DNA from: Bacteroidota bacterium
GTDB taxonomy: Bacteria; Bacteroidota; Bacteroidia; UBA7662; JAIXUI01
Length of the DNA stretch: 55,572 nt
Direction of reading: 5' to 3'
Assembly (NCBI GenBank): GCA_027484125.1
Contig: JAIXUI010000160.1
Coordinates: 1 to 55,572 of the forward strand
The translations under genes and the position numbers were made by a program. Below, one piece after another: positions 5,739-55,572 of this stretch (its first letter is position 1; each line of letters begins with the position of its first letter). The notes beneath the pieces are model-generated. The model saw only the letters and a list, made by a program, of their open reading frames with translations. It did no database searches and was not told where the DNA came from.

Positions 5739-6880
5739 TCTGGTCTTCCTATTGCAAAAACAGAAGGATTTATCAGCATGGTTTTGACTTGATTATCCTT
5801 GCTGTAAAGCCTAATCATACCATTAAACTCAATTCTTTGGGTTAATTTCCCATTTCTATCCTTTTCTCCAGAAGATTGTTTAGAAATAACAAATCTTGAG
5901 TCTTGTGGTTGCGCACTTAAATCTGAACTAAACTCCTTGCCAAATTTGTCCCGATAAATCAGTTTTACTTCACCTAATCTTAAAAGAGGATTCACTGGCG
6001 GAGGTGGAATTTGTCGGAAATTGAAATTTGCACGACACATGTTAACTCCTGGTGTGGCAATATTCTTCCTTACTGTTTTGGCACAGCCTCCCATTGTATC
6101 TATAACTTGCATGGTTACGGTGTAAACACCAGGTTGTTGATAACTATAGGTAACAATATTACCGGAAGCTTGAAGTTGACCTCCATCACCAAAGTTCCAA
6201 AGTACAAATGCCCTATTTGAAGCTAATGGCTGATTATTGTGGAGAGGTTGAAATTGAAATGCAGCACTAGCACCAAAAGAACTGGCAGAAAAGTCATATT
6301 GACAAAGCGAATCCTCAGGATGGGTATTTATTGTATTAAGTATAGTGCTGGAGCAACCCGTTGAAAAGTTAACTTTAAGACGAACGGTGTAATTACCATA
6401 ACCAGAATATTGATGACTTGGAGCAGAATGACTCGATGTAGTGCCATCTCCAAAATCCCATTCGTAGTTAATCGGTGCTCCATAACCACTTACTTGTGAT
6501 TGAAAATCTACTTTTACTGATGGTGTAGATTGACTAGTGAGAGCCACAAAATTTCTTTCACCAATGAAAAAGGCTGAATCTGAGTTAAAATCTTCAGGAT
6601 TAATTCCACGACGCTGATTTCGAATTTGAATTTCAAAGCGTTCACCTGAAACTTGATCTTCAAGATTTCCACTAAAAATCATGACATTCAAAGAATCTGA
6701 CAAGGTGGAAGTATACATGTATTTATCGTCTTTACCTGCCATAATCTGGAACTTTTGTCCATCTAACTCTGCGTCTAATAGATAGATTGATTTCCCTTGA
6801 AAAGACTGTGGAATTTCTTTAGAGCAAGCAGTTAGAGCAAGAAAGGCAAGAAAGAACAATCGGTTCACCAGAGTTTCCAT
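5735..6880 (-). CDS. PKD-domain lipoprotein, third gene of the sigma operon
   Basis: A 381-residue exported lipoprotein. The signal peptide ends in lipobox LTAC (C19). A beta-rich N-terminal region (about 30-115) precedes two PKD-like domains marked by WDFGDG (141-146) and WNFGDG (228-233). Paired cysteines occur near 176/193 and 266/282. A C-terminal beta-rich region ends in IGRPD. PKD folds usually mediate adhesion or protein-protein contact at the surface. The start overlaps the anti-sigma-like gene by 16 bp, so translation is probably coupled. It may be the periplasmic or surface partner of that sensor, or a target; the sequence does not decide. No enzymatic motif is seen. Confidence 0.8.
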   Translation of the reverse strand: METLVNRLFFLAFLALTACSKEIPQSFQGKSIYLLDAELDGQKFQIMAGKDDKYMYTSTLSDSLNVMIFSGNLEDQVSGERFEIQIRNQRRGINPEDFNSDSAFFIGERNFVALTSQSTPSVKVDFQSQVSGYGAPINYEWDFGDGTTSSHSAPSHQYSGYGNYTVRLKVNFSTGCSSTILNTINTHPEDSLCQYDFSASSFGASAAFQFQPLHNNQPLASNRAFVLWNFGDGGQLQASGNIVTYSYQQPGVYTVTMQVIDTMGGCAKTVRKNIATPGVNMCRANFNFRQIPPPPVNPLLRLGEVKLIYRDKFGKEFSSDLSAQPQDSRFVISKQSSGEKDRNGKLTQRIEFNGMIRLYSKDNQVKTMLINPSVFAIGRPD

Positions 6881-12577: not shown

Positions 12578-13030
12578 TTATTCTGCTGACTCTTGACTTT
12601 CAGAAGTTGCTTTTTTACGGCTTCTTCTAGTTGTTTTGGCCTTTTTAGTAGGTTCTGCAGAGAGCAGAAGCTCATTGAAATCAACCAATTCAATCATACA
12701 AGTTTCTGCGGCATCACCTAAACGGAATCCGGTACGAATGATGCGCGTGTAGCCTCCGGGACGATTGGCGATACGATTCGCAACTTCTCCGAAAAGTTCT
12801 TTCACAGCCTCTTTATCTTGGAGGTAGCTGAACACCATTCTACGAGAGTGAGTGGTATCACTTTTTGCTCTGGTGATGATAGGCTCCACATAACGGCGAA
12901 GCGCTTTCGCCTTAGCCACTGTAGTCTCAATTCTTTTATGAATAATGAGGGAAGTAGCCATATTGGACATTAAAGCAGCACGATGTGAATGCGTTCTGCC
13001 GAGGTGATTATCTGTTTTACCGTGTCTCAT
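12578..13030 (-). CDS. rplQ: 50S ribosomal protein bL17
   Basis: A 150-residue large-subunit protein at the end of the alpha part of the cluster. The conserved N-terminus [12 protein letters not shown] and the [14 protein letters not shown] segment are intact. About 30 residues beyond the usual E. coli-type length (127) form a Lys/Arg/Ser-rich tail, as is common in Bacteroidota. It starts 2 bp after rpoA ends. Confidence 0.99.
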
Positions 13031-13032
13031 GA

Positions 13033-14025
13033 TTAATCTTCGTCAAGTTTGTATTTGGACACATCCATACCAAAGGTCAAGCCTTTTTCGCGTACTAACT
13101 CCTCAAGCTCTGTAAGAGACTTCTTACCAAAGTTTCTGAATTTCAAGAGATCGGCGATGTCATACTTAACTAAATCAGCAAGAGTTTTGATTTCAGCTGC
13201 TTTTAAGCAGTTAAATGCTCTTACGGAAAGGTCAAGATCAGCGAGAGGGGTTTTGAGCACCTTGCGCATCATCAAATAAGTTTCATCAACTTCAGCAGCC
13301 AATTCTTTTGGCTTAGACTCAAGTGTAATGGACTCATCAGAAAAGAGCATGAAGTGTTGAATGAGGATTTTCGCAGCCTCTTTCAACGCATCTTCAGGGT
13401 GGATGGATCCGTCAGTTTTAATTTCAAGAATTAACTTCTCGTAGTCGGTTTTTTGTTCTACACGCGTATTTTCAATGGTGTATTTCACATTCTTGATAGG
13501 CGTGTAAATAGAGTCGATTGGAATTGTACCTAGAACACCATCATTTTGATTGTGCTCATCAGCAGCCACATAGCCACGACCTTTTTCAACCGTAAGTTCC
13601 ATTTCAATTTCAACGTTACTATCCATTCTGCAAATGGTTTGCTCAGGATTTAGAATCATGAAATTGGAAGAAAATCGCTCGATATCACCAGCTGTAAAAA
13701 CTTCTTGTCCTTTTACAGTTATGTAGATTTTTTCATGATCAGAAACATCGAACTTCTTTTTAAGACGTACTTGCTTCAGATTGAGAATAATTTCTACCAT
13801 ATCCTCGATTACTCCAGGAATTGAAGAGAACTCATGTTCCACTTTAGGAATACGTACAGAAGTAATCGCATAACCTTCCAGAGATGAAAGTAAGATTCTT
13901 CTTAGGCTGTTACCTATAGTAACGCCAAAACCGGGTTCTAGCGGTCTGAATTCGAAAGTGCCTTCAAAGTCGTTAGCTTTTTGCATTACAACTTTATCGG
14001 GCTTTTGAAAGCTGAGAATTGCCAT
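13033..14025 (-). CDS. rpoA: DNA-directed RNA polymerase alpha subunit
   Basis: 330 residues, full-length. The N-terminal assembly domain (about 1-230) includes [20 protein letters not shown], which organises beta and beta'. The C-terminal domain (about 255-320) has the helix-hairpin-helix surface that contacts DNA and activators ([19 protein letters not shown]). It sits between rpsD and rplQ, as in the classical alpha operon. Confidence 0.99.
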
Positions 14026-53396: not shown

Positions 53397-54596
53397 ATGC
53401 CCAAAATTTCAACACGCGGAGTCGAAATGCCGGCTTCGCCTATCCGACGATTGATACCCTTTGCCGAAGCCGCTAAAAAGCGAGGTACGCATATCTTTCA
53501 TCTCAACATTGGCCAGCCTGATATTGAAACCCCTGACACCTTTTTAGCTGCCATTAAAAATGCTGACTTAAAGGTGGTAGAGTATTCACATTCCGCAGGA
53601 AATGAAAGCTACCGCAAGAAAGTGGCATCTTACTATCAATCGAAAGGACTTTCGGTAAACACCACCGATGTGATGATTACCACTGGAGGTTCAGAGGCCA
53701 TTCTCTTTGCTATGATGAGCTGCTTGGACCCAGGCGATGAGGTGATCATTCCGGAACCCTTCTACGCCAACTATAATGGTTTTGCTCGTGCAGCAGGCGT
53801 GGTAGTGGTACCGGTAACCGCTCATATTGAAACGGGCTTCGCCCTACCTCCTATTGAGGAATTTGAAAAGAAGATTACTTCAAAAACCAAGGCTATCATC
53901 ATCTGTAACCCCAATAACCCCACCGGTTATTTGTACAGCAAAGAAGAATTGGAGCGATTACGCGATGTAGTTACTCGCCACGATCTCTTCTTGTTTTCAG
54001 ATGAAGTTTACCGAGAGTTTTGCTACGAGAACCAAATTCACACCTCGGTTTTATCCATCGAAGGACTTGAAGCCCATGCGATAGTGGTTGATTCTATCTC
54101 CAAACGGTACAGCGCTTGTGGCGCTCGTATTGGCTGGATGGTGAGTAAAAATGCTGCCGTTATGGCGGCTGCACTTAAGTTTGGTCAAGCGCGATTATCG
54201 CCACCTACTTACGAACAAATTGGCGGAGAAGCCGCTATTGATACGCCTCAATCCTACTTTGACCATGTTTTAGACGAGTATGTTCAGCGCAGGGACTTGG
54301 TAGTGAAGGCACTTCGTGCCATGCCGGGAGTGGTTTGTCCGAACCCCGGAGGCGCTTTTTATGCCACAGTTCGCCTGCCTATTGATGACAGTGATGCGTT
54401 CTGCCAGTGGATGCTGGAGCATTTCTCCCACCAAGGGAAAACGGTTATGATGGCACCTGCAACCGGATTTTACGCAACTCCCGGACTTGGGAAAGATGAG
54501 GTCCGAATTGCGTATGTGCTGAATCTTCAGGATTTGCAAGAAGCGATGGAAGCTTTAGCAGAAGCGCTTAAGGCTTATCCTGGTAAGACTAACTAA
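53397..54596 (+). CDS. Class I aminotransferase (aspartate aminotransferase-like)
   Basis: A 399-residue PLP enzyme, fold type I. The substrate loop is HLNIGQPDIETP (35-46), the PLP-aspartate region is FSDEVYREF (200-208), the NPNNPTG motif is 171-177, and the lysine that binds PLP is K236 in DSISKRYSACGARIGW. The first residues MPKISTRGVEMPASPIR match the usual N-terminus of this subgroup, so ATG at 53397 is preferred to ATG at 53427. Substrate preference cannot be told. The start abuts a terminator, so the leader is very short or absent. Confidence 0.9.
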   Translation: MPKISTRGVEMPASPIRRLIPFAEAAKKRGTHIFHLNIGQPDIETPDTFLAAIKNADLKVVEYSHSAGNESYRKKVASYYQSKGLSVNTTDVMITTGGSEAILFAMMSCLDPGDEVIIPEPFYANYNGFARAAGVVVVPVTAHIETGFALPPIEEFEKKITSKTKAIIICNPNNPTGYLYSKEELERLRDVVTRHDLFLFSDEVYREFCYENQIHTSVLSIEGLEAHAIVVDSISKRYSACGARIGWMVSKNAAVMAAALKFGQARLSPPTYEQIGGEAAIDTPQSYFDHVLDEYVQRRDLVVKALRAMPGVVCPNPGGAFYATVRLPIDDSDAFCQWMLEHFSHQGKTVMMAPATGFYATPGLGKDEVRIAYVLNLQDLQEAMEALAEALKAYPGKTN

Positions 54597-55063
54597 GTTG
54601 TTTTTAAACCCGGCCTCGTCATGATTAGTTTGTCGAGGCCGGGCCCATAACCATCGTGCTGGTATGAAACCAGCTCAAACCCATACTTCGCAAAAAAGCC
54701 ACCAGCATGCTGGCTGGTATCCAGTGAGATGGCTTTTTCAGGCCAGTTAGCATCGACATATCTCAATCGGTGCATCAATAGCTCTTTTCCTAAGCCGTTT
54801 TTTTGATGTAATCGAGCAACCATTCCCCAAATCAATACGGTTTTCTCAGGTTCAAGCCTAGATGGGCCTATACCCCCACAGCCTACCACTGCATCGTTGA
54901 CTTCGACCACCCAATAAGGACATTCCGGATTGAAGCTCGTTTGGCGAAGTAAAAACTCATCAAAGTCTCCCACTTCGGATGGCAAAAAGTCGCGAGGCAC
55001 ATTAGACTTTATCACTTCGAGACAAGCGCCGTGGTCGGATGGCAGATAAGGTCTAATGATCAT
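54593..55063 (-). CDS. GNAT-family N-acetyltransferase
   Basis: 156 residues. The acetyl-CoA-binding motif A is HQKNGLGKELLMHRL (about 87-101, matching QxxGxG). A strand ending WVVEVNDAVVGCGGIG precedes it and FFAKYGFELVSYQHDGYG follows. The substrate is unknown. It is 29 bp downstream of the DUF2200 gene and convergent with the aminotransferase gene, overlapping its end by 4 bp. Confidence 0.88.
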   Translation of the reverse strand: MIIRPYLPSDHGACLEVIKSNVPRDFLPSEVGDFDEFLLRQTSFNPECPYWVVEVNDAVVGCGGIGPSRLEPEKTVLIWGMVARLHQKNGLGKELLMHRLRYVDANWPEKAISLDTSQHAGGFFAKYGFELVSYQHDGYGPGLDKLIMTRPGLKTT

Positions 55064-55092: not shown

Positions 55093-55452
55093 TTATCTAA
55101 TCACTTTATTTAATGGTTTCCCTTTGGCCAGTTCATCGATGAGCTTGTCGAGATAACGGATATTTCGGCTTAAAGGATTGGCGATTTCTTCCACCCTATA
55201 ACCGCAAATTACCCCTTTGATGTTTGAAGCATTTGGGGGAATGTTGGCTCGCTCGAAAAACGTTTTGAAAGTAGCCTTTTCTTCCATAAGCTGTTGAAGA
55301 TCCGTTTCAGTAAAACCCGTTAACCAATGAATCACTTGATAAAGCTCGTCTAGCGTTCTGCCTTTTTTCAGAACCTTATTCACGTAATGCGGAAAAACCG
55401 ATGCGAACGTGAGGTTAGCCATGCGTTCGTCTTGAGCGGTAGTGGTGGTCAT
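55093..55452 (-). CDS. DUF2200 family protein
   Basis: 119 residues. The sequence ERMANLTFASVFPHYVNKVLKKGRT and the HWLTGF and IRYLDKLIDELAKGKPLNKVIR blocks correspond to the DUF2200 family of small cytosolic proteins of unknown function. The start at 55452 is preferred because the family normally has several residues before the TFASV motif. Only 24 bp separate the start from the predicted 3' end of a group II intron, so its original promoter region is interrupted or displaced. Confidence 0.85.
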   Translation of the reverse strand: MTTTTAQDERMANLTFASVFPHYVNKVLKKGRTLDELYQVIHWLTGFTETDLQQLMEEKATFKTFFERANIPPNASNIKGVICGYRVEEIANPLSRNIRYLDKLIDELAKGKPLNKVIR

Positions 55453-55476
55453 GAGGTAGTGGGTGGATGAGTAAAA

Positions 55477-55572
55477 ATCGAGTAGGAAGGTAGGGATTAT
55501 TTCCCTACCTGTCCTCTCACACCACCGTGCGTACCGTTCGGTACACGGCGGTTTGCTAGAATAATTGGAGCT
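55477..55572 (-). mobile_element. 3' end of a group II intron (domains V and VI), rest beyond the window
   Basis: Read on the minus strand. Domain V (about 55520-55553): a 9-bp lower stem pairs 55544-55552 with 55521-55529, a 2-nt bulge lies at 55530-55531, and a 4-bp upper stem pairs 55540-55543 with 55532-55535 around a GAAC loop. It is followed by GTGAGAGG and a domain VI hairpin (stem 55502-55509 with 55489-55496). TCCTACTCGAT then ends near 55477, with a candidate branch-point A at 55483. This fold and end are characteristic of bacterial group II introns. The body and any reverse-transcriptase gene would lie right of the window. Confidence 0.78.

Follow-up and report, generated by a model that had tools for sequence, protein, structure and literature searches.

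The window, i.e. the whole stretch of 55,572 nt analysed here, is contig C30 of an assembly of 3.33 Mb in 167 contigs. Its right end carries, on the minus strand, the 3′ terminus of a group II intron, followed by an intact gene for a DUF2200 protein and by a GNAT acetyltransferase gene that is possibly co-transcribed with it (Table 1). The intron leaves the DUF2200 coding sequence whole and interrupts no gene. The 3′ exon at the junction reads TTTTACTCATCC, and the DUF2200 ATG, 24 nt past the junction, is situated at the same position as the start of the aligned homologues.

Table 1. Features at the right end of the window (positions are those of the window).
Feature	Position	Strand	Evidence or remark
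GNAT acetyltransferase gene, outside the intron	54593..55063	-	PF00583, 3.7e-9; 29 bp after DUF2200
DUF2200 gene, 119 aa, intact, outside the intron	55093..55452	-	PF09966, 6e-46 (Pfam)
24-nt 3′ exon/leader, intron end to DUF2200 ATG	55453..55476	-	Sequence
Last intron base; 3′ exon begins with T at 55476	55477	-	Six 3′ junctions compared
Group IIC intron, 3′-terminal 96 nt (domains V and VI, preceded by the end of domain IV)	55477..55572	-	RF00029, fold, 3′ ends identical or nearly so to those of five other contigs
Domain VI	55479..55519	-	Fold; one unpaired A at 55483
Domain V (ACCGCCGTGTACCGAACGGTACGCACGGTGGT)	55521..55552	-	RF00029 alignment span and fold

The initial annotation had proposed this terminus from a minus-strand domain V with a 2-nt bulge, a domain VI and a final TTCCTACTCGAT, and had placed the junction 24 bp before DUF2200, in the same direction; both claims hold. 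The Rfam model RF00029 (domains V-VI) matches 55477-55553 of the minus strand over its complete length (1-77 of 77) with 45.0 bits, above the gathering score of 40 (E 1.1e-5), confirming domain V by covariance model. The 96 nt fold with a minimum free energy of -44.8 kcal/mol, the mean of 200 dinucleotide shuffles being -23.8 kcal/mol (z = -5.99); no shuffle (0/200) was equally stable, which rules out a chance fold. In this fold the 2-nt bulge breaks the domain V helix and the unpaired A of domain VI lies 7 nt from the intron 3′ end, which makes it the predicted branch point by analogy with established group II anatomy. The 3′ boundary is fixed because the intron terminates with TTCCTACTCGAT both in the window and in five other contigs (C8, C27, C81, C89, and C25), past which the six sequences part ways within the next bases, the first base of the 3′ exon being T in all of them. 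The intron tails of the other five are mostly at contig ends, and the window stops where it does because the intron is a repeat at which the assembler halted. The smallest contig in our sample is ca. 2.6 kb and, therefore, short repeat contigs were apparently dropped from the assembly.

Besides these six matching 3′ junctions, the genome contains seven 5′ junctions, starting with GTGCG in contigs C156, C126, C107, C64, C51, and C7 and with GTGTG in C5; the intron is thus present at about seven sites in this bacterium. An overlap of exactly 119 nt joins contig C156, with the 5′ part, to C8, giving a 1945-nt element that starts with GTGCG and has the defined 3′ end, although it is not certain that both contigs belong to the same genomic copy, because both ends lie in repeats. 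The domain I-IV models RF02001 (145 bits) and RF01998 (54 bits) match the 5′ part and the region preceding the ORF of this element.

Bases 42-117 of contigs C50 and C104 of G000 (L022 and L023) belong to another group II intron, unlike the first (RF00029, 60.3 bits), with GCCTGACCCGATTA as its 3′ end. Its copies, of which there are at least two, are again situated at contig ends, and the assembly yielded no reverse transcriptase (RT) for it.

The only RT/maturase ORF found in the genome is in contig C8, codes for 483 aa and ends just before domain V. The deduced protein matches TIGR04416, and Pfam finds in it the RVT_1 and GIIM domains only, with no HNH endonuclease domain; it terminates soon after the maturase domain. 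Its best match in a PDB search was the RT of GsI-IIC (8.2e-123), followed by 7uim, another group II intron RT/maturase (8e-115), with LtrA far behind (1.2e-32), closeness being judged here by match score. The protein is ca. 40-60% identical to the relatives found, and a protein scan of the genome contig collection with it returned no relatives. Downstream of the intron 3′ end, C8 (L017) contains at 1767-1805 a terminator-like hairpin and, after it, a T-run (ATCGGCTGCGAA..TTCGCGGCCGATTTTTT), which precede the ATG of a gene for a BipA/TypA-like GTPase.

Insertion next to terminators is a described habit of group IIC introns (PMC4424553; PMC8919778). Strong hairpins of intrinsic terminators, of -21 to -27 kcal/mol in the 44 nt directly preceding the intron, were found at six of the seven 5′ junctions; of 5000 stretches taken at random from the window, 0 to 0.08% attained such energies. 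At the remaining junction, that of C126, the hairpin is weak (-4.5 kcal/mol). Contig C167 (L061; ca. 6570-6714 and 12724-13877) contains decayed copies of the intron with internal deletions, which differ from it by 10-18% and show older rounds of insertion; two of them have their 5′ ends directly behind terminators as well. Among the matches listed for the family, the first base of the 3′ exon could be read at 98 junctions and is T at 88 of them. A search for an EBS1-IBS1 pairing identified AUAGGAG, at position 149, which pairs with UUUUUAU in three copies, other stretches scoring equally. The intron is a terminator-associated group IIC (class C) intron. A comparison, via relatives, of the DUF2200 neighbourhood with the seven 5′ flanks gave one weak, non-decisive match, between a C7 protein and L048 (37%).

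The copies of this intron differ upstream of domain V. Contigs C81, C89, and C27 agree with C8 from the motif CTTCACC to the 3′ end, with two different bases in C81 and C89, whereas the ca. 15 bases preceding CTTCACC are unrelated to C8, the break falling inside the last codons of the RT gene. At this place there is an inverted repeat, GAGCTGGTG-TACTT-CACCAGCTC, which is a perfect 9-bp repeat in C81 and C89, where it includes retained bases, and has one mismatched pair in C27. The simplest reading of these contig ends is that the ORF was lost from this subtype, with the hairpin closing domain IV, and most copies in the genome appear to carry such a variant of domain IV without the ORF. Complete relatives lacking the ORF do exist; one of them, L205, is ca. 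0.6 kb long, is situated behind a terminator and is matched by the models for D1-D4, DV, and DVI. The window does not reach far enough to include the hairpin, but has both of the bases that set C81 and C89 apart. It is therefore likely that the window copy is of the ORF-less form, in which case it was probably served in trans. ORF-less introns are rare in bacteria, and nearly always share their genome with related introns, which may provide proteins in trans (PMC4424553).

Two other readings of the window copy have to be weighed against this one. It could be full length and encode a maturase as in C8, with the RT gene beyond the contig end: a copy with the ORF does exist in the genome, and a collapsed ORF contig of ca. 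1.7 kb would fall under the apparent size cutoff of the contigs. Nevertheless, we consider this unlikely, since only one RT was found in the genome and the two bases ally the window with C81 and C89, which leave the ORF-bearing copy abruptly within its last codons. Given that cutoff, the middle of an ORF-less intron, or else another ORF, could be on a short repeat contig that is missing from the assembly. It is very improbable, in turn, that the 96 nt are a dead 3′ fragment instead of the end of a whole intron. Truncated, degraded copies do occur in this genome, in C167, but their divergence is unlike the window, whose 96 nt are identical to the tails of C81 and C89 and meet the contig end where the collapse of a repeat predicts it. 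The RT gene and the GTGCG-type 5′ end that the initial annotation proposed to look for to the right of the window do exist in the genome, as do an intron body and 5′ boundaries, although the 5′ half of the window copy itself is absent from the assembly and a maturase ORF immediately to the right is doubtful, because the window matches a subtype lacking at least the end of that ORF.

Splicing or an intron-borne promoter had also been suggested to control DUF2200, which is possible but unsupported by our results. The 24-nt leader before a conserved start codon leaves little room for a separate promoter, and, were there a terminator upstream of the intron, the old promoter of DUF2200 would have had to overlap it or be situated further up; transcription might then start inside the intron, or read through from upstream and be followed by splicing. 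Additionally, PMC4424553 cites a study on outward promoters of IIC-attC introns, which are related to this one. However, consensus scans, which are weak tests, recognised no sigma-70-type promoter in the intron tail or the leader, and no Bacteroidota-type -33/-7 promoter in the intron tail, the leader or the body of the reference intron. We also scored, with a crude ORF caller, the orientation of the next ORF at the 94 scorable 3′ junctions of the family among the matches listed, finding it co-directional at 41 and opposite at 53; where the ORF is co-directional, the 24-nt spacing of the window is among the shorter ones. This rules out a special co-orientation with downstream genes and, since the next gene is opposite as often as co-directional, does not suggest that the intron was selected as a promoter. 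A takeover of DUF2200 expression by the intron is thus rather doubtful, even if a promoter that the scans do not recognise could still exist, and we regard the adjacency to DUF2200 as one of the sites of the intron and not as a special regulatory arrangement. Quite improbable, too, is the combined scenario of an ORF-less IIC subtype, with a small hairpin in place of the ORF, that spread behind terminators in trans from one maturase source and also supplies the promoter of DUF2200.

A search with a DNA pattern for domain V identified relatives in many genomes, mostly of Bacteroidota; among the matches listed, most share the 5′ terminator context and a few are inserted instead at or beside the end of another intron. 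The hairpin subtype was not found in the viral contigs searched, and the plasmids searched yielded distant, partial matches only. In L199, two related IIC introns are in tandem, the second beginning 4 nt past the 3′ terminus of its neighbour, as though domain VI of the latter and the T-rich flank had been recognised like a terminator. L210, an IMG/VR contig of 2019 nt, consists almost entirely of a single related IIC intron; it has a terminal direct repeat of 123 nt, and the intron 3′ end joins its own 5′ end directly. This may reflect insertion in tandem, a circular molecule or an assembly artefact catalogued as viral.

The intron resembles the group IIC introns B.h.I1 and GsI-IIC in its terminator-associated insertion, its GTGCG-type 5′ end and domains V and VI, its matches to the domain I-IV models, and an RT closest to that of GsI-IIC. 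Unlike these, it belongs to a family of Bacteroidota, and most of its copies in this genome have a domain IV variant apparently devoid of an ORF. It also resembles the bacterial ORF-less group II introns (PMC4424553) in having several near-identical copies that do not match domain IV of the ORF-bearing copy, together with one copy of the RT, although here the absence of the ORF is deduced from contig ends instead of being read through. As with group IIC-attC introns, this is a class C intron that inserts at hairpin DNA, but its targets are intrinsic terminators and not the attC sites of integrons.

We are thus highly confident that the window ends in a class C intron that is present in about seven copies inserted behind terminators, the window copy being probably of an ORF-less subtype mobilised in trans. 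In the mechanism that we propose, the intron RNA, together with the maturase/RT encoded by at least one copy (C8), would reverse-splice into DNA directly past the hairpin of an intrinsic terminator, on its 3′ side. The exon joint would lie within the T-tract or beyond it, and would be followed by a T. The window copy, whose subtype probably lost the domain IV ORF and moved in trans, would have entered just before DUF2200, behind a putative terminator of the upstream gene situated beyond the window. If this copy follows the habit of its family, it adjoins DUF2200 because of the choice of target.

A known mobile element accounts, therefore, for both the contig break and the gene context, and an attractive regulatory explanation is no longer called for. 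If the window copy and its like are indeed devoid of the ORF, this bacterium would harbour non-autonomous IIC introns in several copies, those with the hairpin apparently outnumbering the one with the ORF; PMC4424553 describes such introns as rare in bacteria.
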